Positions 4,000-34,187 of a DNA stretch of 64,000 bases are shown here, piece by piece. The notes below the pieces were generated by a model that saw nothing but the letters and a program-made list of their open reading frames with translations, had not been told where the DNA came from and searched no databases. Within the stretch, counting starts at the first letter, position 1, and each line of letters begins with the position of its first letter. The DNA comes from Perkinsus olseni (lineage: Eukaryota; Perkinsozoa; Perkinsida; Perkinsidae): the NCBI GenBank assembly GCA_013115135.1, contig JABANP010000047.1, forward strand, positions 62,001 through 126,000, in the 5' to 3' direction. The position numbers and the translations under genes were made by a program.

Positions 4000-5196
4000 C
4001 GGGGCTTGTGCGCGCCAAAGTTAACAAGAGACTTATGGTAGTGAGTATAGTTCAATGCTAGAGCTAGCAAGGTGCTAGCACTAGAAACAGCCATGAAGTT
4101 ATGGCTGTAATGATGGCGGATGCGAGCTTTACCCAGCCCTCCGCTCCCTGGATGTGGAGGTAGGATACTGGAGACTCCTGAGTCGACCCAGATTGGGTAT
4201 GGAGTCTGGCAGCTCTCGTGTCCTACTGAACCGTGCCATGGTTACCGTGGTGGCATCCAACTGATAGTTGGCAGCAGACACAGGCTACTGCCTGGTCGCT
4301 GGCTCTGACACTGCTGGATATCGCGGAGGCCAGAGCAGAGCCACTCACTGTTCACACTCCCAACCTTTGCATCATAGAAATTTCGCCTGGTGCGAAATCG
4401 GCTCACAGTCAAAAGCCTGATGAGAATTTCGATCCACCTAACCTATGGTGTGTGTGTGTGTGAGTTTATAGTCCAACGCCGGTTCCGGCTTAGTTAGACT
4501 CTTGCCAATGTGCACAGTTAGGAGACTTTCTGTAGCATTGACATGCGGTGCAATCAGATAGATTGTCAAGAAGCTATTCTCAGGGTTATATTCAACTAGA
4601 GAGACTTCCTTTCCTCCTGGCAGGATCCGCTTACACATCCGGGGGGCTGTGCCCACGACCGTCACACAAAGCCTCGCCCCGGCGTGCCACGACAAGCATC
4701 ATCTCCAGGACTCGAAAAGTCCGCCAATCAAGTTGCTTTTCCCCCGTGGTGGACTCTCCAGCGACGTCGTCTTCAGTTTCAGACTTCCAAATCGCAAATT
4801 CGCACATCTATCAGCGTGCCTCGGTGAACAGGATCCCTGACGTTTGATTGGCCCTCAGATTTTGAACGGTTGGGTTCTTATTTGTTGGCGATCTGCCACT
4901 GAGCGTCTCAGAACGACAGAACCTCTCTAGAAGTAATCCGGACACGCCGCGTTCAGCATCACTGTGCCCGTGCAGTCGGGGTAGTCTTTGCCATAACAAG
5001 CTCATGTTGATCAGTTTCGTGATTGCTACTCTCGCTGCGTTTCGTTGTCAAACGATAGTTCGTAGACTCAACTACGAAGGGGATGCGATGGCCTTTTTCC
5101 TCATCCCTGTTTGTGACTAGGCCTCTTCTTTTTGTCGGCTCTTTGCCGTCTCAAGCCCTTTCCTGTCTGTGACTACAAGCACTCAACCGGACAATC
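4000..5196. other. intergenic, upstream of giant repeat gene
   Basis: No gene recognised. It holds a short (GT)n tract at 4447-4461 and a few short ORFs on both strands that show no family features. The promoter and 5' UTR of the downstream gene should lie in the last few hundred bases, but no motif could be assigned. Confidence 0.4.
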
Positions 5197-8100
5197 ATGC
5201 GTGACTCTGTAGCTTCAGAGTGTCGTGGCGGACCACTTCGGTCTCTTGTAAAGCGACTGGCAACATCGCCGTCATTGGCAATATTGCTCGCCTCTTTCAT
5301 AGCCTCAGTAACACCGTTGTCTGTAGCTGGTGTCAGCATCGCGAATAGCGACTATGAAGAGGTATTGGCTCTACGAGATGGTGGCATACTACACTCGGGT
5401 GTTCCTTGCAGATATCGGAAGACGTTAGCGATTTGTGTGAAGCTGTCGAGCTCGGTGACGGAACCTATTACCTCGTCGCAGCTTACAGAGGGAATGCTGT
5501 CGCGGTAAAGCGGATGGCTTCGGCTATCTAACCTATCGCTACGGTTTCATTCTCGTTCAGTTGACCAGTAGGCGTTCGGGTTCGAAGCAGCCCTATGTTC
5601 GGTGCAAGCCCGTGAAGGAACCGATCTACCGTTCGTTCGGCGGGAAGTTCGTGGTTCAAAGCACATGTGGCCTCTCTACTGTCCGCTTTTACTTCAAGGA
5701 CCAGCATGGAGCAGCAGACTTTGCTGTACTGTGGGGAGGCGTCACTACGGTAGGTCACTGACAGAGCCCCGCCGCCCTGATGATGCCAGGAATTGCGGCT
5801 ATCTTGGAATTCTTCATCGGTCTGTGTTCAGGTGGAAATGGTTGAGGACTATCTATCGAAGTCACCTGTATTCAACTCTGCCTCTCTCGGTGAAAAGTTG
5901 AAGCTCGTGAGAGCTGCTGTCGATCACTCTCCCGAACACTACTTTGCTACTCGCCGGACGCTAGAGGTGGCAGCCCAGGCCTTCCGAAGCACAGTCAATC
6001 AGCCCTTTCTTCAGTTTACTGTTGGAGGGGAGTCTGAGCCAATTTCTTTGGACTGTGATCGAGTTCGCGACCAGGGAACTTCCAAGAGGGGCTACTCCTC
6101 GGATGAAGGTGTCGAGCATGCCTGTCTTAGTCAGTCAGGCGTCATCGTCTCTGTATCGTCCTTCAGCTGGCTCCCAGTTTACTGTGACAGTCGACTGTAA
6201 TGAGGAAACTAAAGGGAAGGTCACTCTGAGCATCCCTTTTGAGAAGAGCTACGTGGCGAGCGACTTCGCCGCTAGCTGGGGCTACTTCACCTATGCTGTA
6301 ATCGCTCTCCTTTGTAGTGGTCATGACGATGGCCAGGTTCAGATACGAGTAAACGTTAGCAAGGCAGATCCCGAGATCGAAGACATGCGGGTTGAGCTCA
6401 ACCTAGATTCGAAGAGACCAAGAGAACGACTGATCACTGTAGGATGATGAGTCATCATCCACCACGAGCAAGGCTCTTGCGTGGCCTCTTCTCACCTGTT
6501 GTATCTGCCTCAGTACAACTCAGTGAAATACACCTGTGGCGCCGTATTCTTCGCTGATGAGACGGATGGCGGGTATTCTATGAAAGCCAATTGCGCTGAG
6601 ATTGGCGTGTGGCAACGGCAAGATATGGAGTTCAAGTTCAAAGATGTTCGAGAGGGGCGAAGGATCGCCTATGAGCTCGGCGGCTATCGCGGGGTAGCCC
6701 GGCTGCCGCTTGCACGGCTTCCCACTCGGAACGGTGGCCCTCTCTCAGGTTCGAAGCGAGCTTCTCACCAAAATCAAAGACGGCCGAGTCTTCGGAGAGA
6801 AGAGCAGCATCGCTAAAGTCATCAGAGCATCTGGGGAAGTTAGTCTTGCGGATGCAGAAAACACTATCAAACAGAGACTCGAGGTGAGCAGCAGCTGGGC
6901 GATCGCACTCTCTCCGTCGTCGGCGGTAAAGTTAGCGGTTTAGATCACCTTCGAAGATGGCGAGACGAGGCCAATGCGGTGCATGCCTCTTGAAGGGACC
7001 AACGGCCTGCGAGCATCCTATGGGAACTTCCTGTTACAAGCGAAATGCAGTGGCCTTTTCACTGAGCTTCTCTTCGAGGATGAGATCAGTATGATGGCCT
7101 TTGCTGTCGAGTGGGCTGGATATCGACCGATGGAGGTGAAACGAGACGTCGAGGCGGTGCGAGGATAACTCTCCAATTGCGAATCGTTCTCAGGAGGAGC
7201 TTCAAATCGGCTTCCGTGACAGTGCAACCGAGGTACAGATTCAACCCAAAGGAGTTGATGTGGCGACAGCCTTCCCTCTCGGGATGGCCTACGCCGAGCG
7301 ATGGGCCTCTTACCTGGACAGGAAGGATCGCAGGCTCAAATCTAGGCGTATCTCGGTACGGCCAGCACATGAACTCAGCGAACAGAGCTACTGAGGAGCT
7401 GCCTTTCAGATTCACATTCCGTCGGCTTATATTCGTTTCACGGAGTCCTTCTACTGTCACCGTGTGAAAGAACCGGTTCATCCAGTTGAAGCCAGCAATA
7501 ATGGCGGGACCCAGTTCGGGGTCACCGCTTACTGTGGGCTCATCGGATATGACTTACGAGAGCCCGACGCGGAGAACTGGGACTTGAAGGTGACCGTCGT
7601 GTTCAAGGATAGGAGCAGGGCTATGACGATGGCCAAGTGGTGGGGCGGCTACTGGGGAGTGAGTGGATGAACCTTCGTCGTCGTGGTGATTCTAGAGGTG
7701 GAGTACTCTATCGATTATGTCAGATAAATGGGCGTGACTGCCATCAGCTGGATATTGATGGCAAGGCTGTTGCCGGGCCGGGAGACGCGATCATCGCTTC
7801 GGTCGAGATAGACCCCTTCTTCAAGCCGCCGAAGATCGTTGGCAGCACCATTACGGTGAGACCTCGGGTTCAATTCCTGGTAACGACAACATATCCACAA
7901 TGAAAATGGACTTTAGACGTTCCCAACATCACCGTCTATCGTGACTGCTCCTCAGGCCCCTGCCGGAAAGGACTTCCCTTGTAACAGTGTGCAGCCGACT
8001 ATCCGGTACTTACAGAAGGACTATGAGCTTTCACTCTCCTGTGATGACAAGCCCTCAACCCTGCATTGCAAAAGCCGCAGCGGCTCCTCACAGTTCGCCA

Positions 8101-11100
8101 TGCAATTCGGTCTGTTCAAGGAAGTGACAGTAAGTCCTGTGAAGGGAATACCCACTCTCATGCTTCTTTCCCTATCAGATCGCCATGCATAAGAGCCTCC
8201 TAGACAGCTGCCCTGACCTTTGGGGAGATGGAGTTGCACAAGGATCGTATAACGGTGCTGCCGAGGCTATGTTATTAGTCAAGGACGGTGTGAAGGGCGT
8301 CGCTAATAGATGGGTTCAGGTAGGATTATCTCTTCAAGCCTCTTGCGATAAGCATGATGATCCGAAGAGCTTCTGGTATTTCCTTACCACATTAGGATCA
8401 TCGGTCTTCTCACCCTGGGCCCTCTGCCCGCCTCTGAACGTCTCGTTCTCGGTGGTGTTGATGATGATGACGAGGCATCGTCCGTTCCTGCTCAGACTTC
8501 CACTGGCAGATCGGAGTCCTGTGAGCCGGTCGAGCCCCACATGATGTGGGTTAATGGCAGGTGAGTTTCCGACCGCTCCACAGGCGATTCAGATGAGACG
8601 ACACGCCGATAGATACGCGTTCTCAAGCCAGTGCGCAGGGGAGGCCACCAAAATGGGTTGTAGCAGTAAGGAAGCCGCGGAAGACTTCGCCTGGGGATGG
8701 GGCGATACTGAAATTTCTGATGTGAGAATGGCCCCAGCTCGTCGTTCTACCGGCATTTGCGTTTATGGTTGTAGATATCCATCGCCGCTGATGTTATCAA
8801 GAAGTGCGAAGCCGTCGCCGTTGGAGAGTCCACTACTAGATTGCTCGGAGCAGCCTTTGACCCTGCTACTCAAAAGAGGACCATAATGGTGAGATTACGC
8901 ATCACTCGGTGCTAGGAACTCTATCGCTACCTTCACTGATTACTCCACACTCGAACCGCTATCGATCCTTTTTGTCGTTGACTTGGGCATCATTTCCCAC
9001 TCTGTCAAGTCCTTGAGATGGTGGCTGATAGAATTGGAGCCGGGCCTACTCTCTGTTGTGAATAATGGACTGACAGACTTCTGTTGATCGTGTTCGGGGA
9101 TATTCTTACGAGTCTCCATGCTCAACATGAAGGCATTCGTAGAGATACTGGGAATCATATCCCGAAGATTTGAGGCCCTCATCATCACTACTACCGCGCC
9201 CGCCGTCTCAGGTATCCTCATCAAAGAACCCGGTGTCATGCTCTGCTGTAGAGGAGGCCCCAGAAGACATGGACCTTCTTGGAGAGTACCACATCACCGC
9301 CAAATGTGCTTCGCGAGATGTCGTTATCAAGTGCACTGACCCGGGGGCTGCAGTGAAGCTGGCCCATCTATGGGGTTCTTATCCCAATCGCGAGGTAAGA
9401 GCAGCTGTTGTCGTCCATGCTGAGCGAGGTTACCCTGGATTTCCTTAGATCCAAGTTAGCAAGGCTTTGCTGGCGAAATGCAGCGCTCCCTCTGGCACGC
9501 AGTCTCTAACTTACGAAGTGACCGACGACGGGCAATGGAAGGGGACTCCTAGATCTTGGGTAGGGCGAGGACTCGGTATGGCGCGAATTGCTTGAAGCGA
9601 TCGATCTGACAGTTCACCAAAGAACGGGGCCTCACCTGCAGCACCCCAGTGCCCGACCTCAACTTTATCGGTGATGATATCCTCATCCAGACAGCTTGTG
9701 GTTCCGATGTGCTGAGGCTGAGTTGCGGTGGACTGGATGGTATAAAGGAGACTATGAGAATCGTTACTCGATGGGGGGAGAATCCTAGCCCTAAGGTGAG
9801 ACAGTCTACAAGAACAGTATAATGACAGTATCGCTGGTCAGATCCTGATCAATAAGAAGGTCCTAGAGCGCTGCACAACGCTGACTAATGTTGGTGATGG
9901 TACACTGGAGTCGGCTTGGTTACGAGTCACCGGAGACGGCTCCCGAATCAGTAGATATTTATGGGTAAGAGGCCCGGCAGGGCGGTCACCTCGGCAATCT
10001 GTTTCCATGGCCTCCATCATTTCAGTCGGGCGAGCCCATCCGCTGTGATCATGGAGTGACGTCCCCTCTCATACTGTCTGACGATAGCGTGAAGGTGAAG
10101 ACACAGTGTGAAGGCGAGAAGGGCCCGGTGGCCATAAGTTGCCGAAGCGACTTTCCCGCCGTTAGAGAATTCGCGCGGAACTGGGGAGGATGGGATAGCG
10201 CAGTGGTGAGTGTCTACCTCAACCAAAGATACTGTTGGACTCCAGTTGAAATCACACTGTTGCCTTATTGTCGCTGACGAGACGCCTCAAGCTCTGCGGT
10301 ATATCTTCCACGCGGAGAGCATTGGGCCCACAGCCTCTGACGTGGATTGCATTCGATTTTGCATGATGCTCCTCTGGAGTCGTCCCTGCTTGCATCAGAT
10401 GCTATTGGATCCCAGCTTGTACTCCTCCTGTGCTGCTGAGAGATCTGGCGCTACCAGCGACCGAGAGAGGATTGCGGCCATCACTTACAATGTTGACAGT
10501 CGTCACAGGAGTATCGTGGTAGGTCGGTCACCCTGGTCTTCCTCACGCAAGTATAGCTAAATATGGGCGATGGTTTGAGTGACTAGAAGTGAATGCGTGG
10601 ACGAGCGTCATTATAGTACCCATCCGGGAAGGTCGTGTTCATAGACAATGTGCCGTCAATGCTACGGCCAAGTCTCACGCTATCTGATCCGCTGCGTGTG
10701 ATACTGTATTCTTCTTTTGCGCAGTTCCCAGACAAGACCCAGGAGACCTGTGCTAGTCCAAGCTCTCCTCCGGCGTTGGTTGTGGATGAAGATGATGCGT
10801 CATATCGTCTCCGAGTCCCCTGCAACAAGAAGAACTACGTCGTCCTCACTTGCACCTTGCCCGGCAATGCTGTGGATGTGTCCACTTTCTTTGGCTATCG
10901 CACGAGAGAGGTAACTGCTACAGTGCTGACTGCAACATTTACTGACACCTCACAATTGATGCACGGTCTTCTCTGATATTGTTACGGCACTCTCAGGTTA
11001 CCGTGCAGGAGGCAACTGAGTGTAAGTCGAAGTCTAGCGGCATGGCCCCTCTGCGGGCTTCCATCCACATCAATGCTGATGGTACAGCGGGTTCCCGGAC

Positions 11101-14100
11101 ACTGGTGGGTGACCACAGCACCTCTACCGTATCGGAGCTCGGCGATCTCAGGTATGGCCTCCATCGTGGAAGCCTACGGTAGCCTCGGGGGAGGACGCAG
11201 AGGTGGGCGTTGTGTCACGGTATGGAGCAAAGGGCCGACTTTCCTAGGTGCGGTCGGATGACGATGAACCAGGACCACGGCCAGCTGATGGCAGCAGCAG
11301 CTTCCTCGAACGACAATCGTCGAGTCCACCTCGGCCTTCTGAGCGAGTAGCAGGGGAGTGCGTTATCGGAGATTTTGGAAGGTGTTTGTGTCAGGTGGTG
11401 CGGCGAGAGGTCGTGGACAGCGAGGAAGACCCCGTGTATAGAGACTGGCACTTCTGGGTTGAAGTTGAGTTCAAAGCCACCTCGGCTGAATGTGAAGATG
11501 CGGAATGCATCGCCTACGACCATCTCGACTGCGGGGATGTTGCGACGACGCTATTTGTGTCCAAGTGGTGGATCGGCAAGACCGATGCCAGAGTCAGTTA
11601 TCTCGAGCTTCCTTGATTCCTCTTTACACCTACTTGACCTGTAGGTGAGGATCGATGATCCGATCATGGAGCACTGTGGAGGGCCTGTAGGAGCGTCAAG
11701 AGTTGTAGCACAGCGAGAGTTGCCGGTGAGTTGTCGTCATCGCCTTTCCCTGAGATAACCGGCATTGGCTCCCTCCTCAGTACGACGCTGATAGCCCGCT
11801 GGATTGTGACGCCGTGACAAAGCCTATCATGATGGGTGGCAACGGTGGCTACGTTGTAACGGCCGACTGTGGCCCTAGGAGGGATGTGGTAACCCCCGTG
11901 ACCTGTGATGGACTCCAATGGGCACAGCTCTTCGCTCATGGCTGGGGCGATATGGACAAGGCCGGGGTACGGTCGGCGAGATCCGCGGATCACCGGGGGA
12001 AGCCCTCGTCATTGTCTCAGGTTGGTCTGCCGGCTGATGTGATTGAGAGCTGCAAGCAGGGGTCGATAGGCGAGGATGAAGTTGAGCTCACCGGAGCCTT
12101 TTACGATGACGAGTCCCGACATCTGACGGTGAGGAGAAGTCCATCTCTTCGGATATCTTCTCTGATTTGTCGCCTGGCAGTTCGCCACGATGGAGTCCCC
12201 ACTGGAGTGCGGTGTTGTGACGGAAGCTCCGGAGGACATGGACAGGGTAGACGAGTTCCACGTGAAGATCAACTGCGGAGGGGAGGATGCGGTGATTCTC
12301 AAATGCAAGGATCCCGGCAGTGCTGTACGAATGGCCCATCAATGGGGGAAGTATCCGAAGCAAGAGGTGCGACCAGAATGGTGATTCAGCGTTGTGATGG
12401 TGCAACGAGGGTCAGGTGCAAGTGAGCACAGAGTTGCTGCTACAGTGTGATGATCTGCCGGGTGGTCAAATTCTGAACGACCTAACCTACGACGTCAGCA
12501 TGAATGGAACATGGCAGCAGACTCCGAGGCATTGGGTGAGTTCACACGATCCTCGGTTTATTCGCGTCAGCTGCGTGAGTTGATAGCCGCTTGTTGATGA
12601 GGTTGCTGGTCAGGGCGACGCTGTTTGCACGACACCAGTGCCTGATCTGGTCTTCCGAGGTGATAGAATTTACATCGCTACCGGATGCGGCGGAGCGAAA
12701 GAGGAAATCTCCTGTGGCGGGCTGGAGAGGGTTGGCCCCATGCTAAGGATTGCTGCTCGCTGGGGGGAGCATCCCAACCCCAAAGTATCTCTCTGTTGGC
12801 TCTGTCCCGCTCGCTATCCCCCTTCTTCTTAGATCATGATAGACCCATCGGTAGTGGGTAAGTGCAAGGATGTGCAGAGCTTGGAGGGAGGCACTTTAAA
12901 AGACGCCTGGATCACAGCTGCCACCAACGGCGACGTCACGAGCAGATCTCTCGAGGTGGGTTCGGCTTCTACCGACTAAGACAAGAAAAAGGAATTTCGG
13001 AAGTTGCCGTTTTCCCGCTTTCAGACCACTGACGCGTATAACTGTGACAGTGGTGTGAAGGAGGCTCTGGTCATGGCCGGAGATGCCGTTAGTATGAAGA
13101 CCCAGTGTAGCGGGGTCCAGGGAGACGTGCTCATCCAGTGCGGAGATGGTGGCAGCGCTGTGGAGTTCGCCAAGAACTGGGGAGGCTACAATGCTAGTGC
13201 CTTGGTGAGAGGGGAAGTCTGGTGTAGTCTCATGGGAGTCGTTTGTCCTCTGAGTACAAGCAGAGCCATCGGTAAAGCGTATAAGGGCTGTGCCGGGAAT
13301 TGTACGCGGCGCGAATGGCATGCTATATAGCACATCCCTCTCCCGCCGCTCGGTTGAGCGAGAAGCACACCACTGGGGTGCGCAGCCGGGATGGTGGAGT
13401 TGGTCATTCGCGGAGAGTGGCCGAGCGCGTAGCACCCGAGGAATGGACCAGTCGTCTGTGGTGAGCGGTAGAGCTCGGACACGTGTCAAATACAAAGTCA
13501 ATCACTCAGAACATCGAGATGTACAATTTCAGTTCTCCCTCGATCCGTCGAAGTTCGATTCTTGCAAAGTGAAGCGGTCAGAGAAGTACGAGGACATCAC
13601 TGCCGTTCTCTACGATCATGTTCACAAGGCGAAGATGTTACAGGTGAAGTTGGGGCTCAATTTATCCGCACACTGCCTCCCTAACACTGTCTCCCTCCGC
13701 CGTGGAGATATGATGTAGACGACGCTCTCGGTCGGTATATGACTATGAGGACACAAGATAGATTTTCACTCATGAGAATGAATTTGCATCCCTTTCGCAG
13801 TCCAAGGGCGATCTCATGCCTTTCAGTTCGAAGACGATTCGTCAGAGGTTTGCAAGTCGACCAGCACCACGCCTCCAGTTGTCGTGGTGAAGAAGGGCTC
13901 CACTACTGCTATCTATCGTTTCAACTTGGATTGCTCCGATGAGGTTACCGTGGAGTGCCTAGAGGCCGGTGACGCAGTGGACGTCAATACCTTCATGGGC
14001 TTCCTCACTCGAGAGGTACAGTGGTACAGGGGCTCATCAACCACCCCCACCCACCTTCCCTCAGGTTGCAGTACCAGAGGCGACTCAGTGCAGGACCAAG

Positions 14101-17100
14101 CATGGTGTCAATCCTCTCGCTGCTACCATTGAGATAGATGTTCATGGAACAGAAGGGATGAGGTACCTAACATGGCCGAAAGACTACGCAACCGAGGAGC
14201 CCGAGGCCGAGGTGAGCCTGCCCGATCTATGGATCGTCAGCTAAGACTTGCCCGGCTATTAATGCCTCTTTGTCAGATTCCCGCTCCGTCAACTCTGACA
14301 ACCCCACGTCGAGGCCAAGGCTTCGAGAGCTCGGCCCGAGTCAACTATGGTGGCTTCCGTAATAGTGGAGGGGACAGAACAGCGGTGAGTTCGCTCTGCC
14401 CAGCGTGGTCAACAGCACCGATTCCTCAGACCCGCGCTTCTCCCAGCAGTGCCGCACCCACATCTCCAATTGCATCTAAGACTACGGCCCAGGTGGGACC
14501 TAAGAGATGAGCTGCGAGGTCGGAGTCACACTGGAAGTATGTCTCAGATACCTAGTCAAAACCGACAGCGTAACTTGTCGCGGCCTAGGACAACTTTCAA
14601 AGTACGCGGCGCCGCCTGGGACCGGTTCGATTGATTTTCTTCAGACCAGTATAAGGACTCCAGGCTTTCCCGCATCGGGATCGAGGCTATCATTTCAAGG
14701 TAAGCTAAAAGCCCTCCAGTTGAGGTTTCGTAGTTTTCGTGCGTAATTTTCAGACCTCCATTACGCACGGCGCAGTGGACGGGCGAGAGAGGGAAGCTGA
14801 TCGGTCTAACGACAGGGTGAGCTAATGGGTCGAGTTAGCAGATCTAGGGCGATCCTCGGACAGGTCTTCCATCGACCAGCGGAAGATGATGACAACAACC
14901 GTGATAGAGGCGCCATACCTCCCCTACCTCAGTTCAATCACCTCCCGAGCTTCCTCGAGATCGGACCCATCGCGCAGTCAGTGAGTCATGTAGCCTCTGG
15001 GTTGTGAGCCGACTAGTAATCTTTTCCCCCGCTCAATAACCTAGGAATCGAAGAGTTGATTCTCGCGCGTAAAGTGCGGTTTTAGAATCGATACTGATTT
15101 TCGGAGCGGGGTCATTGAACACCTTCCTGACTCAGACTCCCGTGCCACAGACTCCGCAAAGAAAGGCGGTTCGCCCCATGAAAGATGACCCCGTGTATCG
15201 GGATTGGTACTTCTGGGTCGACATCGACTACACTGCCGATGACTGCCCGCCGGGGGAGGACTGCTCTGTTGCTGAGCATCTGGACTGTGGGGGAGTTGAG
15301 AACACCCTGTATGTTGCAACCTGGTGGGGCGGCAAGAAGGACGCCAGAGTAGGCGGGCAGAGGGGAAGTTCAGTGAATCGTTACGGGCCTATCTCAGGTC
15401 CGCATAGACGATCCTATCATGAACCATTGTGGAGGCCCATTGGGTGCATCGAGAGTTGTTAGTCAACGAGAACTACCGGTAGGACGTCCGCTCAGCCACG
15501 TGGTGATCCTTGACCCCGTCAGCTCGACCCTGCCAACCCCCTCTCGTGCGCTCCGGTGACGACACCTATCATCAACGCTGGACCCAAGAGTCACATTGTG
15601 GTAGCCCACTGTGGCCCCGAGTTCAAGGAGCGCCACGAAATTCGGTGCGACGCCTCGATCTGGGCCCAGCACTTCGCCTACGGCTGGGGCGACTCTGACA
15701 ACAGCGGGGTGAGGTGCCGCACCACTGTACTTGAGCATTCCTCTGCCCGCTCAGTTGGACATACCAGCTGATCTTGTGAAGGCTTGTGCGAAGGCTACAG
15801 TGCAGCGTATCGACAACCTCCATACTCTGATATCAGCCTCATTAAAGGGGGCTACTATCATGCCTGGCAACGACGGGGATAACTTCAAGACTAAGAGGGA
15901 GCTGAAGGTGAGGACAGCCGAGACACACCTACCGCCACGCCCTCTCCTCCCTCAGTTATCTTTCCAAGTGGCGCCCTACCGCTACGAGCCGTCCGTGTTC
16001 CACTATCAATGTGAACGTGTCTCAACGGCAGTGGAGATCCCGGAATTACCGGGTGCCCCAGCTGTGGCCTCGGTCAGAGCTCTCTGCGATTTTGATGAGT
16101 TTCACAAGGCCTTCGTGAAGTTGGAGTGCCCAGAGGCGGCGGCTGTTGCTTTCGCTGTCAAGTGGGGCGGATTTTCAAAGCGAGTGGTAAGCCGATATGA
16201 ATCAGCACCACTTGGCGCTTTGCAAAAAATCCTTTTTCATAGGTCGGCCTCGGGCCGGAGATCATGTCTCACTCGACTAAGATCGTCCGAGGGTCTGAGG
16301 ACCTGGGGCCTGCCATCAGTGCGACCATGGATGAAGATAGGGGCAAGTATTACCTACAGGTAGGCGGCTAAAGTAGCCTGAGCGAGAGCTTGCAAGTTCC
16401 CCCGTTGTATGATCAGGCTAAGGATACTCCTGGCTACTTCATCTGTGACAAGGCTGACGCTAAGATAGAACAGACCAAGGACTTACAGTTCGCCGTCTCG
16501 GTGTCCTGCCCCTCACATTATGTAGACTCGAGGACACAGTCGAATACCGAGCCGAAGCTAACAGTCTATTTCGACGATCCCTATGCTGCTATCGGCTTCT
16601 TAGTCCGATGGGGAAGAGTCACTGATGCTGAGGTCGGCACCACTAGCTCCAGCCTTAGTTTTCATTCGTGTCGATCGATTCTGTCCGGCAAGGACTTTCC
16701 TATCATACTCGCTATCGCCTACTAATGGAAGGTTTTGTGTCAGGTTAACTCGTATTACGCCAGTGAGTTCACCCTGCCGGCTCCTCGTGTGACCGTTGAG
16801 AACTCCCTCCCTGAAATACGCATTGATGTGAAGGATATCATCACGCTTCGATGCTGTGACCTCTGCCCTTCAGAACCATACGTGCAAGTGTCCAGCCAAA
16901 GCACCCGTCGTGCACTCTCCCCAAGGGGAAGCTCGAGTGACGTTCTCGAGCAAGCCTCTCATCGCAGTTCGCTACAAGGATCGTATGGTTGCCATGGCCG
17001 CCGCGATGATTGCCGGGCACAGGCTTTCCGAGGTACCAGTCGACTGACCCTATCATCGGATGATCGTCTACATTGTGATTCAGATTGTACTTGACACTGC

Positions 17101-17913
17101 TATCACCCATCATGTTACCCACGTTGCTGTCGGTGATAACGTGTACATGGGTAAGGAGGAAGAGCATCCCCTCAAGCGAGTGGCATTGCTCATATCCGGT
17201 GACACTAACACAGTCTATGATCACATTATCGAGGTCGGCTATAGCACTTCGTTATCGTGCTCCCAAGTTAACCATCTCAGGTGCTCCGTCCGGACCTTGT
17301 TGCCGGGCCTCTTGGAGAGTTCGGAGTGAGACGCTATCATCCGGTGGCCTACAGTTGCGGTCGGCACTCCTTAGAAGCTGTCGATGGGCTTGTCTTTACG
17401 GCTAAATGTGAGGAGGGTGAGCTACCCGAAGGCCCTCATCACCATTACGCTCCCCACTTGGCCACTACCCCTCGCAAACCGGTAGAGCTCGCTCTCACAT
17501 TTGATGACCCTCGAGCTGTTGAAGCGTTCGTCGCCTTCTGGAAGGATAGCCCACATAATGCAGACGACGGCCATTCGAGTGGGGAGGCCGAGCTCGGTCT
17601 AACGCCATCATCGCTGCGAGCAGCTGGTCCAGAAACTGTGACTAACGGGGCGAAGAGGCCAGCCGAGGTTCGACGCAGCACGGCACTTAATAAACAAGGC
17701 CGGCCGGAAGGAGCCGCAGCTAACACTACTCCCTCCGCCACCTCTCCTGGCGCTGATCATGCATCATCAGTCGCTAGTCACGGTACGAAGAGAAATAGCG
17801 GCGCCGAGGCCTCATCTGTCAGCAGTGTTAAAGGCAGCATTCGTCGCCATGTTGTCCGACACAACATCAACAACGCCAATAAGTACCGAATGCGGGCGTC
17901 TTTGTCTGAGTGA
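5197..17913 (+). CDS. giant secreted-type protein with about 23 Cys/Trp-Gly repeats
   Basis: I do not recognise this family. Exons are almost all phase 0. The first (5197-5361) has a hydrophobic stretch at residues 24-45, a likely signal peptide or anchor. Two exon types then alternate. Type A (about 53-83 aa) has spaced Cys, a beta-like stretch ending in Cys, and an end block A-x3-A-x2-WG-x6: 5561-5749, 6139-6297, 6514-6693, 6944-7135, 7410-7658, 7917-8129, ~8559-8721, 9212-9394, 9613-9795, 10026-10205, 10725-10910, 11395-11592, 11781-11966, 12181-12366, 12614-12784, 13025-13204, 13827-14015, 15151-15348, 15523-15708, 15956-16186, 16417-16632, 16874-17032, 17281-17913. Type B (27-54 aa) lies between, for example 7724-7855, 9449-9559 and 12833-12955. 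The tail (last ~130 aa) is Ser/Ala-rich and basic. About 2,700 aa in total. The 8320-8560 junction is un-resolved. Probably extracellular; this is inferred from the leader and the cysteines. Confidence 0.75.
9212..12128 (+). repeat. giant gene internal block, copy 1 (12 homologous exons)
   Basis: Exons 9212-9394, 9449-9559, 9613-9795, 9842-9964, 10026-10205, 10399-10518, 10725-10910, 10997-11104, 11395-11592, 11645-11725, 11781-11966 and 12021-12128 each match, in order, an exon of the next block. Several lengths are identical (123, 180, 198, 81 and 186 nt). Two extra short exons (11152-11202 and 11248-11346) encode an acidic, Pro/Ser-rich linker. Confidence 0.85.
12181..15907 (+). repeat. 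giant gene internal block, copy 2 (12 homologous exons)
   Basis: Exons 12181-12366, 12416-12535, 12614-12784, 12833-12955, 13025-13204, 13533-13643, 13827-14015, 14065-14211, 15151-15348, 15398-15478, 15523-15708 and 15755-15907 pair one-to-one with copy 1. The linker part is expanded: 14277-14384, 14430-14492, 14548-14601 and 14864-14980 are likely exons coding Pro/Ser/Arg-rich low-complexity sequence, with a few more possible near 14645-14820. Divergence is high, so the duplication is old. Confidence 0.85.
13285..13387 (-). pseudogene. tRNA-derived insert within an intron
   Basis: Both ends resemble the tRNA-Pro of the 0.5-4 kb array: an acceptor-like GGCTGCG at one end and CACAGCCC at the other, followed by a T-arm-like CCGCG/CCCGG around TACAATT. 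The middle is expanded by about 30 nt and the anticodon arm is not recoverable. It lies in intron 13205-13532, which is about 135 nt longer than the homologous intron 10206-10398 of copy 1. Confidence 0.5.
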
Positions 17914-18123: not shown

Positions 18124-18170
18124 CCTCAGGCTCCCTATATACCGCGCCGCGGTATATAGGGAGCCTGAGG
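18124..18170. repeat. 47-bp perfect palindrome, 1-nt centre
   Basis: Two 23-nt arms, CCTCAGGCTCCC... and its exact complement, separated by a single C. It would form a very stable hairpin or cruciform. It lies about 210 bp past the stop codon of the giant gene. Confidence 0.95.
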
Positions 18171-18664
18171 ATAGAGTCCTCAAGGACCCTCTCAACCTTC
18201 ACGTGAAACCTATCCGAAGGGGGCGCTGGGAAGACTTCTGTTGTAAAGTGCGGAAAGCATTGAAAGAGCAATACGGCAGCTTCCAGGATATGTGCGCGAG
18301 GTATCATGTGTTGACCACGCTTGCCGCGGCTGAAACTCTGAAGAAACTAAGGTGGGGAGAAGATGATGCTGTTTAAGTTGATGACTGTGTGAACGATGAA
18401 GATGACCATGAATACCGTTGTTGCTGTTGCTGTATGGTGTTATTGGCCTGTTGCGGCCTGCGGGTTGTGTTAGTACGCTTCTGCTGCATCAATAATTACC
18501 GGTCGAACGAAGGTGACCATGCGCCGGCGCGGGCTCTTTTTGACATGGCCCCCGCTCTATAGAGTTGCGGGCGAGCATTGCGGCTACAAGGAGTGCGGCC
18601 CGGCGCAGGAATTTTTATGGGAGCCTCAATTCCTCAGATGTCACCGTGACATTAGTGACAGTTA

Positions 18665-18697
18665 AATGCCGATATTCGTGACACGAATATCGGCATT
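18665..18697. repeat. 33-bp perfect palindrome, 1-nt centre
   Basis: Two 16-nt arms (AATGCCGATATTCGTG and its complement) around one A. It has the same architecture as the palindrome at 18124 but an unrelated sequence. Confidence 0.95.
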
Positions 18698-19428
18698 CAA
18701 CTTTCCAGTATGTCACACAATTCGCGTCAGCACGCATTATGATCCCGGCTCGACCCCTGGTGCGGACATTTCTACTGCATTCTCCACACTTAGCGGAACT
18801 CAACTTGGGAGAAGCAGGTAGTATTGACAGCTCGGCTTGTGCTCCTAAAGGCGAGGCCGCGTCGCTTCGGCCAGTCGAGCAGTAAGGGACACGTTATTGT
18901 CACTAAGTTGGGTTCCTTGCCTTGTCAGTTTCTGGCAAGTCGCAACTGCTGCCAGCATTCCCATTAAGCAGGTCATACTGGGTTACCGCTGCGGGTACTG
19001 GGTTGTCAATACGCCATTCTCGAGTGATTTATTGTCTCACAATGAGCCACTCTCAGCTGCTATATCATTTGCCGTGCTTCTCCTCGGAAGAGGTTCTTGC
19101 CTTCTACCCCTCCAGATGGACGCTGCATTCCATCGCGGCCTGTGACGGGACTGGCTAGAGGGACATGCGGTTGTGTGGCTCTCGTATAGCTTCTCAACCA
19201 CGGCACGGTTTCTCTGGTTACTCATGATAGCGAGAGTGTGAGCATGCAGGATTCTTTGCTTTCGATCGTGTTAGTGTTGCGTTCGCTTTCATTGCTGGTT
19301 CGGCTGCATGTGGTCTGTCCGAGTGAGTATCGATTCTCATCTGTTTTTCCCGTCTCAGTTTCGCTCCTGTTAGGAGATTTTGTTGTTTTTTGTGTTTCTC
19401 GATACAGCCTTTCTAGAGCTACCTAAAC

Positions 19429-22400
19429 ATGGGAGCTAACGGGAAGGCCGAAAAATTCTCTCTGTCGAAAAAGCTCTTCGGAAAGAAGAAGAAGAACACC
19501 AATAATGGAGGCAACGGCCCTGATGACGTTGAGGATCCTAACAACGTTCATGTTGAGGATACTAAGTCTGTTTCCTACTTCACCCTCTTTGGACTGGCCG
19601 ATAAGCGTGACAAGACGATTCTTGCTGTCGGAGTGATCGCTGCTCTGATCAACGGTGCATTGATGCCACTATTCTCACTTCTATTTGGTAACTTTGCTGA
19701 TGCTGCTGCTGGTGGTATACATGGATTCATGCACAGAATATCCAAAGTTGCATGGGAGATGTGCGTCTTGGGTGCGATATCGTTCGTTGCCTCTTCTGTA
19801 TTCAACACTTGTTTCACTTATTTCTCTGAAAATCAAGTTACAAGACTGAGGGTTAAATACCTACAAGCTGTGGTTGGGCAAGATATAGCCTGGTTTGATG
19901 TGAGGACTCCCTGCCGCCTTGCCAGCCCGTATGTCCGAGGATGTTCTCAAAGTCCGTGATGCTATCGGTCAGAAGGCCTCTATGATGTGCATGAATGTCT
20001 CTATGTGTATCGTCGGTTATATCATCGCTTTCTATAGGGGTTGGCAGATAACTCTTGTTATGATTGCCACTTCCCCTCTTATTATGCTCTGCGGAGCACT
20101 CATGGCCAAGGCAATGGCTGGACTGGCCTCTAAGGGTCAGAATGAGTATGCTGAGGCGGGTGCTGTCGCTGAAGAGGTTTTAGAGTCTATCAAAACTGTC
20201 GCTTCTTTCGGTGGTGAGCAGCGGTCTATTGACCGATACAACGCCAAAGTGCAAAAAGCGCTGAACTCCGGTGTGAAGGCCTCGGTCTATCGAGGTTTTT
20301 CCATTGGCTTTACCATATCCGTGGTGTACTGGACCTACGCCCTCACGTTCTGGTATGGTGGTACCCTTATTCGCGACCAAACCATCAACCCGTCCACTGG
20401 AAACCCCTACCAAGGCGGTGATGTTCTCACTGTCTTCATGTCCGCTATGATGGCTACTTTCTCCATTGCTCAGATCGCCCCTCACTTCCAGGTAACGCTG
20501 CGGGTTGGAAGGCCTGTGTAGTTGATGATGATCGTCTTCCTCAGGCGTTCTCAGAGGGCTGTGCCGCTGGTGGAAAGATATTCCCCTTGATGAAGGAGAA
20601 TGCTACGATCGAGCCGAAGGTGAAGAGGCTGTCCGAGGGTGGTGAGGCCGAAGCCAACATGACCCCGGTTAAGTTCGAGTCATTGAAGTTGGATGATGTC
20701 AAGTTCAACTATCCCGCTCGTCCGGCATTGCAGGTAAAATATGGCGCTTTCTCTTTTCTCGAATTATTCAGCTTTTCGCGTCAGGTGCTCAAGGGGATTT
20801 CACTGGAAATCAAACGCGGTCAGAAGGTGGCTTTTGTTGGCGAGTCTGGATCAGGCAAGTCCACTTTGGTCCAGTTGATCGAGAGATTCTACGATCCGGC
20901 CGAAGGACAAGTAAGAACTGGTTCCCTCATTTCACCGTTGTCTCTGTATGCCTCCATCTTATCAGGTCCTGGTTAATGGTGTTGACATCAAGACCATGCC
21001 CGTTCACAAGCATCGTGCTCTGTTCGGTTATGTCGGCCAAGAGCCTTTCCTGTTCGCTGACAGCATCCGCAATAACCTTCGTTATGGTCTTACTGGTAGT
21101 AGGGTACCGAGCGAAGAGGAGATGAGGAAGGCTTGTAAAGACGCCCAGATTCTCGACTTCATCGAGGGCCTCCCTGAGGGCTTCGACACTTATGCTGGTC
21201 CGGGTGGTAGTCAGATGTCCGGTGGTCAGAAGCAGAGGATTGCCATTGCTAGAGCTCTCCTGCGCCATCCGGAGATTCTCCTGTTGGATGAGGCCACATC
21301 AGCTCTTGATAACGAGAGTGAGAAGATGGTCCAAGCCACCATCGATCACCTACAGTCAACAGTCAGCATTACGACCATCTCCATTGCTCATCGTCTGTCT
21401 ACTATCAAGAACTCTGACGTCATCTTCGTGATGAAGCTTGGCGAGCTCGTTGAGCAAGGCACGAATGATGAGCTGATGGAAAAGCAGGGTGTCTACGCTT
21501 CCCTGGTATCAGCGCAGGCTGCAGCGTCTGCGAAGGAGGATGAGCAGGCTGCTGCTGATACTGAAGCGGCGGCTACATCCTCTGTCGACACGGCCAGTGA
21601 GATGGTGAGAAGAAAGAGCACCAGGACGAGAACTGCAACTGCTGGTGTTCTTGGTGGTGACGAGGAAGATGATGATGAGCATGAGTCGCCTAATGAGTCC
21701 TTGTTGAAGACCGAGGATGAGAAGGAGAAGGAGCGCAAAGCGGAGATTGCTAAGACCTACAAGACACCGTGGCGAAGGCTTCTAGGCTTCAATAAGGACC
21801 AGAAGTGGTGGTTCCTACCAGCCATCCTCGGCTCATTCATGACTGGCTCTGCCTTCCCACTCAACGCCTTGCTGTTATCTCGTGCGTTGTTCGCCTTCTA
21901 CTACCCTCCCTTCCTGGTCATGGAGCATGTTGATAATATATGCTTCTACTACATCGGTCTGGGTGTTATGATACTCATTGGGCAGCTAATCGATTCTGGA
22001 TGCTTTGGTTATCTCGGTGAGAACTTCACTTGTAATGTCCGTAAACAATGCTTTGCTAAGATCATGGAACAAGATATGGGCTTCTTCGACTTCCCTGAGC
22101 ACGCAGCCGGAAAGCTGACTGCCTCTCTGTCGACATATGCTGTCAAGATGAACTCTCTCACTGGTTCCAGTCTCGGTATCTACTCCCAGGCTATTACTGG
22201 TCTGATCGTTGGTGTCATCATCGGCTTCTGTGGGTCGTGGCAGTTGACTCTCGTCATGCTGGCTATGTTGCCTATCCTAATGCTAGCAGCGAAGTTCAAC
22301 ATGTCCGTGAGGATGACGGGTAAGAAGGAGCAAGACAACCTCAAGCAGTCGCAGTTGATCGCTTCTGAGGCTATCCAGAACATGAGGACTGTCAGAGCCT

Positions 22401-23500
22401 TCATGGCCGAGTCTTGGACGGTGGATCGCTATGCTGAGTTCGCCAGTGATGCTAATGATACTAGTGGCTCGACAGCTATCATTCGTGGCCTTCTCTTCGG
22501 CGGCTCCAACTGTATCATATTCCTAGCCTATGCTCTGGGATTCTGGTACGGTGGTCATCTTATGGTCTACAACGGTCTGGGCTATTCAAGGATGCTCCAG
22601 TCGTTGATGTCTGTCATGTTCGCTGCCATGGCTGTGGGACAGGCAATGGCCTTCCTTCCCGATGTAGCCGAGGCTAAGGTCTCCGCTCATGATGTGTTCG
22701 AGATCCTCGATACTGAGTCCAAGATCAACGCTATGCGTCCTGATGGCACCGTCACTGACATGGGCGATGGTGTGGTTGAGTTCAAGGACGTCCACTTCAA
22801 ATATCCCACCAACCCTAACCTGCCGATTCTCAAGGGCGTGTCTTTCCGAATCGAGCCGGGTCAGCAGGTGGCGTTCGTTGGCCCTTCTGGTAGCGGCAAG
22901 TCTACCATCATGGCTCTGATGCAGAGGTTCTATGACGTTGAAAGCGGGAGTATCAGCATTGGTGGTGATGATATCAGGATGTTGAACGTTGCCTGGTGGA
23001 GAGCTCAGAACGGCTACGTCGGTCAGGAGCCTGTATTGTTTGACATGACCCTCGCTGAGAATGTTCGTTACGGTAAAGAGGATGCGTCGATGGCTGAGCT
23101 GGAGAAGGTCGCTAATATGTCTAATATGGACTACGTCACCTCGATGGGTGGCAGCGTTAAATGGGATGATCCGATGGGCCCGAAGGGATGTCGTCTGTCC
23201 GGTGGTCAGAAGCAGAGAGCTGCAATCGCCAGAGCTCTCGTCAGGGATCCTCATATTATCTTCCTTGATGAAGCCACCAGTGCTTTGGACTCAACCAGCG
23301 AGAAGGTCGTCCAGCATGCCATTGATACCGCCTCTGTTGGCAGGACTAGTGTTACTGTTGCTCATCGATTGACGACCGTTCGCAACTGCGATGTTATCTA
23401 CGTTATCACCGATGGTAGGATAGTGGAGTCTGGTAACCATGACACCCTCATGGCTAAGCATGGCGTCTACTACGACCTGTACACCAAGGGTCAGAAGTAA
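19429..23500 (+). CDS. MDR/P-glycoprotein-type ABC transporter, full length (copy 1)
   Basis: ATP-driven exporter of the ABCB class, expected in a cell membrane. Exons 19429-20491, 20545-20733, 20785-20910 and 20966-23500 give about 1,303 aa in a TMD-NBD-TMD-NBD order. NBD1 has Walker [10 protein letters not shown], signature MSGGQKQR and Walker [16 protein letters not shown]2 has [17 protein letters not shown] and [12 protein letters not shown], and both end in an AHRL(S/T)T H-loop. A Lys-rich N-terminus and an acidic/Arg linker between the halves are visible. One extra C at about 19909 (...ACT CCC TGC...) breaks the frame; removing it restores alignment with the neighbouring paralogue, which has no such base. 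All three introns sit in positions shared with that paralogue. Confidence 0.92.
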
Positions 23501-23869
23501 ACAACAACCACAGCCTCTCTTATTTGTTTGCTTTATATACCTTTCTGTTCCGGGCAGCAGCATTTAGCACAGTTATCTGGCTTTTCAGCGTTTGCGAGCC
23601 GTCAGTGCCTGTCCACAGTTTCCGGACGATATTGGCTTTCCATTGCGCTACGTCTCGTTGAAGCTAGCGTGTTAATACTAATCATAATAATACTACTACA
23701 AGTATCTGGTGGTATCTTGTGAGCTTGCGTTTGCTTCGAAGGGGAGGTCTACTGGACGTGCCCTCCTGGGAACTAAACGGTCTCGAACTCGACATATCTT
23801 TTGCTCGCAGTTCGAGGCAGCTTGATTGCTCCACTCGACTTTTGTTGTTTCCCGTTGACCCGCTTCATT
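23501..23869. other. intergenic between tandem ABC genes
   Basis: Short spacer with the 3' UTR of copy 1 and the 5' region of copy 2. No further gene or repeat seen. Confidence 0.5.
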
Positions 23870-26800
23870 ATGGTGAAGCTCTCCCTCTCGAAACTATGCT
23901 CGAGACGACGACGACAAGATCAGGATTCTGATGCTACTCTTGCTGCGGATGAAGAAAAGATATCTGTATCCTATTTTAAGCTCTTCAGTTTGGCCTCGAG
24001 GAATGACTATTACGCTTTGGCCTGTGGTGTTGTTGCCGCGCTGTGCAACGGTGCTCTCATGCCTCTGTTCTCCCTGTTGTTCGGCAACTTCGCCAGCGCG
24101 TCCGCTGGTGGCTTGGACGGCTTCATGGATCGCATCGTCACTGTTACGTGGCAGATGTGTATCCTGGCTGGAGTTGCTCTCATAACAGGGGCCATCTTCA
24201 ACACTTGTTTCACCTACTTCTCAGAGAATCAAGCATCTCGTCTGAGGGTGAAGTACCTTCAAGCAGTCATCGGCCAAGATATTGCCTGGTTTGACGTGAG
24301 GACTCCGGCGGCCATACCATCTCGCATGGCCGAGGATGTCCTAAAGGTTCGTGATGCTATTGGTTCCAAGGCCTCCATGTGCTGTGTTAACATTGCCATG
24401 TCCGTGGTCGGCTATATCATTGCCTTCTATCGGGGCTGGCAAATCACTTTAGTCATGATGAGCTCTCTGCCTCTGATTATGGTGGCCGGTGCCTTGATGG
24501 CCAAAGTCATGTCCAGCCTCTCCTCTAAGGGCCAAACACAGTACGCGGCTGCTGGCGCCGTCGCTGAGGAGGTGCTAGGATCGGTGAAGACCGTGGCCTC
24601 CTTCGGCGGCGAGAAACGTTCCATGGCCAAGTATGCTCTTGTTGTTAAGGACGCTCTCACCTCGGGTATCCGCGGTGGCATTTTCCGAGGTCTCTCCATT
24701 GGCTTCACTATGGCTGTTATTTTCTGGACTTATGCTCTCACATTCTGGTATGGTGGTACTCTGATACGCGATAGTGTCACAAACCCATCGACCGGAAAGC
24801 CCTACCAAGGTGGTGACGTTCTAACGGTCTTCATGTCGGCCATCATGGCTACCTTCTCTCTGGCTCAGATCGCTCCACACGTTCAGGTAGAATGCCCTCT
24901 TGCCATCTACTCAATAGTCAACCGTAATCCTCTCAGGCCTTCGCAGAAGGCTGCGCTGCCGGTGGCAAAATTTTCCCGCTCTTCGAACAGAAGGCTTCCA
25001 TTGAGCCCGATGTTCATCGATTGGCGGACATGCCTGAGTCGTCGGCCACGACGCCTCCCCACCTCGAGTCCTTCGAGCTGGAGAAGGTCAAGTTCAACTA
25101 CCCTGCTAGACCAGAGCTGCAGGTAGTACTCGTCGTCGCCTGTCGACCATCCGCTTCAGCTTGCATGCTACTCAGGTTATCAAGGGTGTATCCTTGAAGA
25201 TTAAGCGTGGCGAGAAGGTGGCCTTCGTCGGCGAGTCTGGCTCGGGCAAGTCCACACTTGTACAGCTGATCGAGAGATTCTACGACCCAGTAGAGGGACG
25301 GGTAAGTTGTGGTATTATAGTGTAGGCCCCTCGCTGAACTGTGTATGCCGTAGGTCCTGGTTAATGGTGTTGACATCAAGACCATGCCCGTTCACAAGCA
25401 TCGTGCTCTGTTCGGTTATGTCGGCCAAGAGCCATTCCTGTTTGCCGATAGCATCCGCAATAACCTCACCTACGGTTTGGTCGGCAAGAATCTTCCGTCC
25501 GATGCTGCCATCAGAGATGTCTGCAAGAAAGCTCAGATTCTCGACTTCATCGAGTCCCTGCCAGAAGGTTTCGATACTTATGCTGGTCCAGGTGGTAGTC
25601 AGGTCTCCGGTGGCCAAAAGCAGAGGATTGCCATCGCTAGGGCTCTCTTGAGGAACCCCCAGATTCTCCTGTTGGATGAGGCCACGTCAGCTCTTGATAA
25701 CGAGAGTGAGAAGATGGTCCAAGCCACCATCGATCACCTACAGTCAACAGTCAGCATTACGACCATCTCCATTGCTCATCGTCTGTCTACTATCAAGAAG
25801 GAAGAAGGAGCAGGATGAGTTGAAGCAAGCTCAGCTGGTCGCCTCCGAGGCCATCCAGAACATGAGAACTGTCAGAGCCTTTATGGCCGAGTCTTGGACG
25901 GTCGAAGCGTATGATCGCTACGCTGCGAGGTCCAGCAACACCAGCTTCTCGGCAGCCTCAGTTCGTGGGCTCACGTTCGGGGCCTCCAACTGCGTCATTT
26001 TCTTGGCGTATGCCGTAGGGTTTTACTATGGTGGTCATCTTATGGTCTACGACGGTCTGAGTTACACCCACATGATGCAAGCCCTGATGGGTATCATGTT
26101 TGCTGCCATGGCTGTGGGACAGGCAATGGCCTTCCTTCCTGATGTGGCCGAGGCTAAGGTTGCTGCTCATGATGTGTTTGAGATCCTGGATACTGAGTCC
26201 AAGATCAACGCTGTGAATCCTGATGGCACAGTTCAGGAGCTCGGCAATGGTATCATAGAGTTCAACGACGTCCACTTCTCTTATCCCACTCATCCCGAGG
26301 TTGAGATTCTGAAGGGAGTCTCCTTCAGAATTGAACCAGGCCAGCAGGTCGCCTTCGTGGGTCCTTCTGGTAGCGGCAAGTCGACTGTCATGGCCCTGAT
26401 GCAGAGGTTCTATGACGTGTCAGGCGGCAGTGTCAGTGTGGGTGGCACCGATGTCCGTATGTTGGACGTTGCCTGGTGGAGAGCTCAGAACGGCTACGTC
26501 GGTCAGGAGCCTGTATTGTTTGACATGACTCTCGCTGAGAATGTTCGTTACGGTAAAGAGGATGCGTCGATGGGTGAGCTGGAGAAGGTCGCTAATATGT
26601 CTAATATGGACTACGTCACCTCGATGGGTGGCAGCGTTAAATGGGATGATCCGATGGGCCCGAAGGGATGTCGTCTGTCCGGTGGTCAGAAGCAGAGAGC
26701 TGCAATCGCCAGAGCTCTCGTCAGGGATCCTCATATTATTTTCCTTGATGAAGCCACCAGTGCTTTGGACTCTACCAGCGAGAAGGTCGTCCAGCATGCC

Positions 26801-26980
26801 ATTGATACCGCCTCTGTTGGCAGGACTAGTGTCACCATCGCTCATCGTTTGTCCACCGTCCGTAACTGTGATGTAATATATGTCGTTGCCGATGGTAAAA
26901 TCGTCGAGTCTGGAAATCACGAAGCTCTTCTTGCCAAGGGTGGAGTGTATCATGACCTTTATATCAAGGGTCAAAAATAA
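23870..26980 (+). pseudogene. MDR-type ABC transporter copy 2, internally deleted
   Basis: Tandem paralogue of the preceding gene with the same intron positions: exons 23870-24886, 24937-25122, 25176-25301 and 25354 onward. TMD1 and NBD1 are intact ([29 protein letters not shown]). At about 25797, just after the NBD1 H-loop (IAHRLSTIK), the sequence jumps to a point equivalent to 22320 of copy 1. About 0.9 kb is missing: the end of NBD1, the linker and the first helices of TMD2. The junction shifts the frame, so the first part stops at 25818. The remaining TMD2/NBD2 coding ([17 protein letters not shown]) continues in another frame to 26980. As written it could make only a half transporter. 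An assembly collapse between repeats is the main alternative. Confidence 0.85.
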
Positions 26981-30177: not shown

Positions 30178-31262
30178 TAATGCCATCCGATGCTTGCGCG
30201 ATCCCCAAGCGAGTCGTTTTGGAGGCGGAGCTCAGCGGTCGTCACCCATACTGCTCGCCGGCTACTTGGAATGCTGTTGCTGACCGTATTCAGGGCGGTC
30301 TGCGTGGATGATTTTCTTCACCCTCTCCTTGCAGGTACTCGGTGTCGAGATGGTTTGTCTTTAGCCTAGGTTCGTATCAGCGACGTTGATGATGGTAGGG
30401 CTTGCCTACCTTTCGTCCGCCTGGCAGCATTCAATTTTTTAATGTACTACCATTATGACGATTATCATCGTATAACGGGTGTATGATCGGTCCAAGGGGA
30501 GTGGTATCGGTACCTGCGTCACTCCTCATCCTCACTATCCAACATGAGTTTTCTAACACTACGGTCTCAGTCGAGGGTGTTCACCGTAGCCTTGCGTTGT
30601 ACAGTCAGACATGCACAAGAAGCCATCAATAAGGCTCATGCACAACGACGGAGCATATTCTTAGTCCACCGCCCGCACATACTATCAGTTTAACTTCATG
30701 TCAGTTCGCCAACCTCTGGTAGGATTGGCCGTAGAGGAGGCTGCCCAGCCTCATGTCGGGTCGGCGTGTGGGGCGTTGTTCGACCGAGCGAGGACTGTTA
30801 CTGTCCTTTGCCTCATCACTACGTGTTTGCTTGCTACTGTGGCCTTATGGAGACGATCTCTCAACTTTGAAGGTGACCATCCAGGCGCTTCGTTCGTTCC
30901 GCTGTATCCCCGGTGGATTCACACTGAATGATCAACTGGCTCGAATGTGATCGCCTCAGGTCCGGCTCATCGAAGCCCTGGTGCTGCTCAGAGTGATGAT
31001 GCCTTCACCATCCTCAAGGCCGAAATCATCATCTACTCCACCATTGCCGTCATAGGCCTCGCTTCCCTCACCATCGCCGGCTTTGTCTTCATTGCTAAAG
31101 TAGCACACCACGTCAATCCTCGGAAATGCACCATCGGATTCTGATGGTCACCTTGGCCGCGATACTCGCACAGTTCTGTCCCATAGGGCACAATAGGCGA
31201 GGATGGCCAGCTAGGGTCTTACTCGGCCCTCCGCGCAGTACATCGAACCAGCCTCCTCTCAG
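30178..31262. other. unresolved region, probable 5' exons of ABCB10-like gene
   Basis: Plus-strand coding potential is scattered: a hydrophobic segment near 30800-30850 and a clear transmembrane-like helix around 31025-31105 (IIIYSTIAVIGLASLTIAGF). These could be N-terminal exons of the downstream ABC half transporter, but splice sites could not be linked with confidence. Confidence 0.4.
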
Positions 31263-34105: not shown

Positions 34106-34187
34106 ATTTTTAAGTCAATTATAAGAGTTGCGTTGAGCAGTAGCATGGGGGACCACACCATCTCATCGTCGAAGTGTGCATCCACCA

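Follow-up and report, generated by a model that had tools for sequence, protein, structure and literature searches.

A giant Perkinsus olseni gene built from 23 tandem two-exon modules, with relatives elsewhere in the genome and in P. marinus

The window analyzed here is a stretch of 64,000 nucleotides from Perkinsus olseni (assembly GCA_013115135.1, contig JABANP010000047.1, positions 62,001 to 126,000), which corresponds to bases 62001-126000 of contig C412 in the genome that we searched (61.5 Mb, 968 contigs). It contains a giant gene, hereafter W1, that extends on the forward strand from an ATG to a stop at 5197-17913. Our curated model comprises 51 exons and encodes 2654 residues, and the single stop is the last codon. 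All 50 introns have GT-AG borders, with acceptors ending in CAG (43) or TAG (7), and 48 of them are in phase 0. Their median length is 55 bp, and eight measure 176-643 bp. This median fits PMC3101222, which describes GT/AG introns of 39-1622 bp, mostly shorter than 100 bp; of 104 genes there, 72 contain introns.

A gene finder that was not supplied with the ends of the gene arrived at 54 exons running from the same ATG to the same stop; since this program was trained partly on W1, its exon-level agreement with the curated model is not independent. It left a 39-nt intron between A2b and B2 unspliced, made A4 longer, and added linker exons. On the reverse strand of W1 the finder predicted 0 residues, and 18 of 20 Markov shuffles came back empty, the other two giving 98 and 343 residues. 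The model is uncertain at the split of A2, at the A2b/B2 intron, and at two low-complexity linkers. The A2b/B2 intron (6298-6336) is open in frame and has a non-AG acceptor in a second copy of the gene (see below), so that retention is possible. W1 is a real giant gene, and its anatomy is well supported. The coordinates, the strand, the alternation of two exon types (A and B), and the almost exclusive use of phase-0 introns that a first-pass annotation had read from the letters of the window were all correct, and so was its view of the locus as one giant gene encoding a module array.

W1 opens with a hydrophobic leader, continues with 23 units in which a B exon precedes an A exon, and closes with a tail (Table 1). 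The first-pass annotation had counted 23 A and 22 B exons; the number of A exons holds, and B0 at 5412-5504 brings the B exons to 23 as well. It had also described A exons as ending in A-x3-A-x2-WG, which we find to be a tendency and not a rule: the exact motif occurs in 10 of 23 A exons (A23 trimmed to 110 residues for this count), WG near the end in 15, and [W/F][G/A] in 18. Its claim that central A exons carry three cysteines and central B exons one is exact for A6-A20 and B5-B19 (15/15 each); three are also found in A2 and one in B0. The two-exon module can be kept as a pair and refined to a likely B-then-A unit. We favor this register because the models of W1 and of two paralogues introduced below, by reading, have a leader and then a B exon at the start and an A-type exon at the end, and because cysteine parity is better. 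The number of cysteines is even in 21 of 23 B-A units vs 19 of 22 A-B units, and the B cysteine co-occurs with the third cysteine of the next A in 22 of 23 cases vs 20 of 22 for the previous A, with A2 scored by hand as lacking that third cysteine. This choice is not proven, since few boundaries distinguish the two registers.

The modules are recognizably related to one another. Alignment of all pairs within W1 gave a mean score of 37.6, where shuffled modules average 25.0, and the shuffled 95% point is exceeded by 38% of the pairs. In an alignment of 24 modules (16 of the 23 from W1 and four from each paralogue), positions C1 and C2 are invariant; A22, which is outside this alignment, has no C2 at the aligned position. 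W1 displays the tandem, alternating B and A exons, the phase-0 borders, and the conserved C1, C2, and WG helix by which we delimit this family of giant B-A module genes. A profile trained on 17 of the 23 W1 modules was run against a database of three proteins, to which the following E-values refer. It matched the left-out modules W2 (6e-6), W5 (4e-5), and W20 (0.0013). Neither paralogue was part of the training; P2 gave 12 matches (11 at E <= 1e-3, best 5.6e-15) and P3 gave 13 (10 at E <= 1e-3, best 1.9e-14).

The array records how it grew. Modules 8-13 pair one to one with modules 14-19: the best partner of each lies six modules further along, with scores of 154-276. At this offset alignment scores average 100.3, and at all other offsets the mean stays below 40. 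The two linkers occupy equivalent places inside modules 12 and 18. When W1 is aligned with P2, its residues 54-923 and 2012-2531 match toward the two ends, with extra W1 sequence between them, as expected if a six-module block was added to W1. We conclude that W1 grew by tandem duplication of a six-unit block. Phase-0 introns at every half-module border would permit such growth by whole blocks.

A second copy of W1, 97.5% identical and ending inside A13, lies on contig C818 (15,530 bases). We take it to be haplotype-like, that is, the other haplotype of W1. Over window positions 4747-11853 the two copies differ at 12 of 1374, 7 of 1373, and 47 of 1373 sites at codon positions 1, 2, and 3 (0.87%, 0.51%, and 3.42%), and at 72 of 2533 intron sites (2.84%). 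The dN/dS ratio is 0.118, there are no in-frame stops, and gaps in exons amount to 3 bases. GT-AG is kept in 27 of the 28 introns compared, the exception being the A2b/B2 acceptor. These values indicate that W1 is under constraint in the first half of the gene, up to 11853, where it can be measured.

Two further loci of the same genome encode proteins of this type. Locus 2 (C823:3157-11491; C307 carries a very similar copy) yields P2 with 34 exons and 1778 residues; locus 3 (C290:138515-145736) yields P3 with 30 exons and 1545 residues, both as uncurated models from the same gene finder. Like W1, both begin with a leader-like segment, follow the B-A order, have introns mostly in phase 0, and correspond to it in the C-terminal part. 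Own-genome rows at C168 (E 0.25) and C231 (E 0.84) were dropped. In P3 the first B and A form one exon; about 16 extra residues between them look like an open intron, so that we claim no intron loss. An alignment search with P2 and P3 found one protein match among 7992 scored candidates, the hypothetical protein Pmar_PMAR020114 (P0001) of Perkinsus marinus ATCC 50983. Its best stretches are 64.6% identical to P3 (1499 columns), 33.5% to P2, and 22.6% to W1. It has 1446 residues and 12 module-profile matches, belongs to the same module family, and is orthologue-like to locus 3, hence a relative of a W1 paralogue. Searches with parts of W1 turned up no P. marinus counterpart of W1 itself: 786 of the 2654 residues gave no protein at E 1e-3 and 1510 gave none at E 10, each among about 8000 candidates of limited length, which makes for a weak absence. 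Viral contigs compared with Pmar_PMAR020114 gave four pattern matches and no confirmed one. Judged from sequence, these genes form a small Perkinsus family with three paralogues in one genome and a homologue in P. marinus. In the literature searched, which leaves out most subscription papers, neither PMAR020114 nor DUF7029 (discussed below) was found, and among the matches listed for Perkinsus repeats, secretion, and surface no title or abstract opening mentions such a family.

Table 1. Features of W1 in window coordinates
Feature	Position	Strand	Basis
Giant gene W1, coding span from ATG to stop	5197..17913	+	Curated model, gene finder, controls
Leader exon, six highest 19-residue hydropathy windows (starts at residues 25-30)	5197..5361	+	Model, hydropathy
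Module 1 (B0+A1)	5412..5749	+	Curated model, module profile
Module 2 (B1+A2; small intron splits A2)	5832..6297	+	Curated model
Module 3 (B2+A3; doubtful intron ahead of B2)	6337..6693	+	Model, second copy
Module 4 (B3+A4)	6749..7135	+	Curated model
Module 5 (B4+A5)	7194..7658	+	Curated model
Module 6 (B5+A6), earliest with four Cys	7724..8123	+	Model, Cys count
Module 7 (B6+A7; A7 split by phase-2 intron 8561-8612)	8179..8721	+	Curated model
Modules 8-13, six-module block, copy 1	8775..11966	+	Module pair alignment
Linker within module 12, B11 to A12; exon structure uncertain	11105..11394	+	Models
Modules 14-19, six-module block, copy 2	12021..15708	+	Module pair alignment
Linker within module 18, B17 to A18; exon structure uncertain	14212..15135	+	Models
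Low-complexity exons in the module 18 linker	14277-14384, 14430-14492	+	Models
Module 20 (B19+A20), 48-nt intron open in frame	15755..16186	+	Input for structure models
Module 21 (B20+A21)	16243..16632	+	Curated model
Module 22 (B21+A22)	16744..17032	+	Curated model
Module 23 (B22+A23); counterparts near the C-terminus of both paralogues	17084..17578	+	Models, alignment
C-terminal tail, basic, Ser/Ala/Gly-rich, and stop	17579..17913	+	Curated model

We then consider where the product may reside. In W1 the leader contains all six of the highest hydropathy windows, and its hydrophobic span covers residues 25-48 by hydropathy alone; P2 and P3 have an N-terminal hydrophobic leader by eye. N-glycosylation sequons are scarce in the four family proteins: observed over expected numbers, W1 first, are 5/9.15, 0/7.59, 2/7.57, and 0/6.84, with depletion P values of 0.0855, 0.0005, 0.013, and 0.0005 (2000 shuffles each). 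The sum is 7 observed vs 31.2 expected, and 12 other predicted proteins of the window have P values of at least 0.301. PMC5562741 reports that sequons are nearly eliminated at buried sites of secretory proteins. The depletion suggests that these proteins pass through the endoplasmic reticulum (ER) and that glycosylation of their folds is selected against. The first-pass annotation had proposed an exported protein with a hydrophobic leader and many cysteines. The leader, as the hydropathy maximum of W1, and the cysteines, mostly four per module, are borne out. Export gains only indirect support, from leader-like starts in three genes and the depletion of sequons across the family, and the W1 protein is probably secreted or exported.

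Its further statement that the module belongs to no named domain stands for W1, which has no confident Pfam match: no row is better than E 0.0063 (ASPP2-like_RA, counted as chance), and DUF7029 is absent up to E 10. It is less secure for P2, whose first 423 residues match DUF7029 (PF22974) in two stretches with 27.8 bits (E 2.8e-6) at a cut-off of 27. The full-length protein scores 26.3 bits (E 8.3e-6), slightly below the cut-off, and a single P2 A-B unit 20.2 bits (E 6.5e-4). The module may accordingly be a divergent member of DUF7029 that was amplified in Perkinsus, i.e., a known but uncharacterized domain; we regard this as possible, short of an even chance, and compatible with the explanation favored below. 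The likeness is a borderline match in the A half of the module, and the alignment spans at most positions 5-52 of the 100 in the profile, not its full length. No DUF7029 row appears in W1, including five of five A-B units tried, in residues 1-770 of the 1545 of P3, in another P2 A-B unit, or in 23 of 24 B-A units. Pmar_PMAR020114 has no Pfam row at all up to E 10, and the six frames of the whole genome give nothing over the cut-off (best 18.1 bits). To call the family DUF7029 would be premature on these alignments, and to call it wholly unrelated to DUF7029 equally so. We take DUF7029 to be a domain of secreted fungal proteins.

Several other candidates were set aside: three NCBIfam rows (E 0.031-0.09), one antibody chain found in the Protein Data Bank (PDB) with a profile of the 24 modules (E 5.8), and Pfam rows taken as chance, among them ISP1_C (0.13; presumably a family with the pleckstrin-homology (PH) fold), DiatomPyrShell (0.057), CVNH (0.0046), and DUF3110 (0.091). 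A PDB search by sequence with 298 W1 residues returned nothing up to E 10. For structure models we used the stretch of module 20, because its 48-nt intron can be read through in frame. In model 2, which has low confidence, the order of strands and the C-terminal helix resemble the PH superfold (PH, Ran-binding, PTB, EVH1, FERM F3), in a comparison limited to the folds listed by VIA-align; Foldseek rows for the module model include lipocalins at probabilities of 0.06-0.09. A tentative proposal, also compatible with the favored explanation, is that the module is an extracellular, disulfide-stabilized sandwich of this superfold, with a C-terminal helix as a cap that bears the conserved Trp. The predicted order of elements speaks for it; the lack of a sequence match and the low model confidence speak against it. 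Known PH-superfold domains are mostly intracellular. In a speculative extension, which we hold to be rather unlikely, an extracellular, disulfide-stabilized module resembling the PH superfold arose in Perkinsus and was multiplied, by way of its phase-0 half-module exons, to give rods with as many as 23 units.

The explanation that we favor, and consider probable, is that W1 is an intact, selectively maintained Perkinsus gene for a giant modular rod protein of the secretory pathway with a structural or adhesive role. The product would consist of a leader, 23 tandem B-A modules of about 100 residues with mostly four cysteines each, and a basic tail. Each module may fold as a small beta-rich domain, with the WG helix from the A exon closing it and disulfides holding it together, and the modules would string into a long rod like beads. 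Such a rod could serve as a structural or adhesive protein, either extracellular or in a secretory organelle. Some observations pull the other way. The highest hydropathy windows of P2 (1.82) and P3 (1.74) are internal, and the deposited P. marinus model has no leader. Taken alone, W1 shows weak sequon depletion (P 0.0855); P3 and its orthologue-like P. marinus counterpart do not count as independent in that test, and the 12 control proteins include antisense or run-together predictions. The number of cysteines is odd in modules 1 and 2, the module profile misses W12 and is poor for W18 (E 1.3) and W23 (E 0.13), and the figures for constraint apply to the first half of the gene alone.

Two competing accounts concern the product and the locus. 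That the product resides in the lumen of the ER or of an apical secretory organelle, and not at the surface or in the wall, is in our view unlikely though worth naming: a leader and sequon depletion are compatible with any compartment of the secretory pathway, and the hydrophobicity of the leader is not equaled elsewhere in W1. That the locus instead holds more than one gene, or reflects decay of the array or faulty assembly, is very improbable. Such an account could draw on the two linkers with uncertain exons and on the eight longer introns, but it has to contend with 2654 codons free of internal stops, with the low dN/dS over the part covered by C818 (to 11853 only), and with two paralogues that are built alike.

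Other features of the window and genome were recorded alongside. About 210 bases past the W1 stop lies a perfect inverted repeat with 23-nt arms and a 1-nt spacer (18124-18170); no second copy of the 129-base piece searched turned up in the genome. A further inverted repeat at 18646-18716 has 35-nt arms, 83% complementary, around a 1-nt spacer. The predicted protein at 19429-26980 (2252 residues) shows, by eye, repeated ABC-transporter halves and probably represents two tandem transporter genes fused by the finder. That at 29372-34742, possibly also two merged genes, has ABC_membrane and ABC_tran matches joined to a cyclic phosphodiesterase-like C-terminus. Predicted multi-pass membrane proteins at 49571-52474 and 57875-59383 look almost the same by eye across much of their sequence, and the latter has no Pfam match at E 0.001. 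A spliced-leader pattern, which is unable to match either P. marinus type, occurs in 87 exact copies in the genome (39 forward, 48 reverse), vs none for the pattern read backwards. Nearly all copies contain the core ATCTTGG; according to PMC3101222, the two types of P. marinus have ATTCTGG and ATCTGG, and dinoflagellates have ATTTTGG. The pattern by itself does not separate this genome from P. marinus, but the P. marinus homologue, at only 64.6% identity to its nearest counterpart here, suggests a Perkinsus species other than P. marinus ATCC 50983. On contig C268 (207896-235713) a spliced-leader-like array advances in steps of about 1.7 kb, often as pairs about 165 bases apart.

Giant secreted proteins made of tandem modules are already familiar, but the module found here lacks a confident named domain. 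The exon design of W1 makes growth by blocks visible as a clean duplication of six modules. With three paralogues and a P. marinus homologue, the family can be tested in existing transcriptomes. If the fold proved PH-like, its employment as an extracellular building brick would be unusual. The family could be a major component of the wall, the surface, or the host contact of these shellfish parasites.
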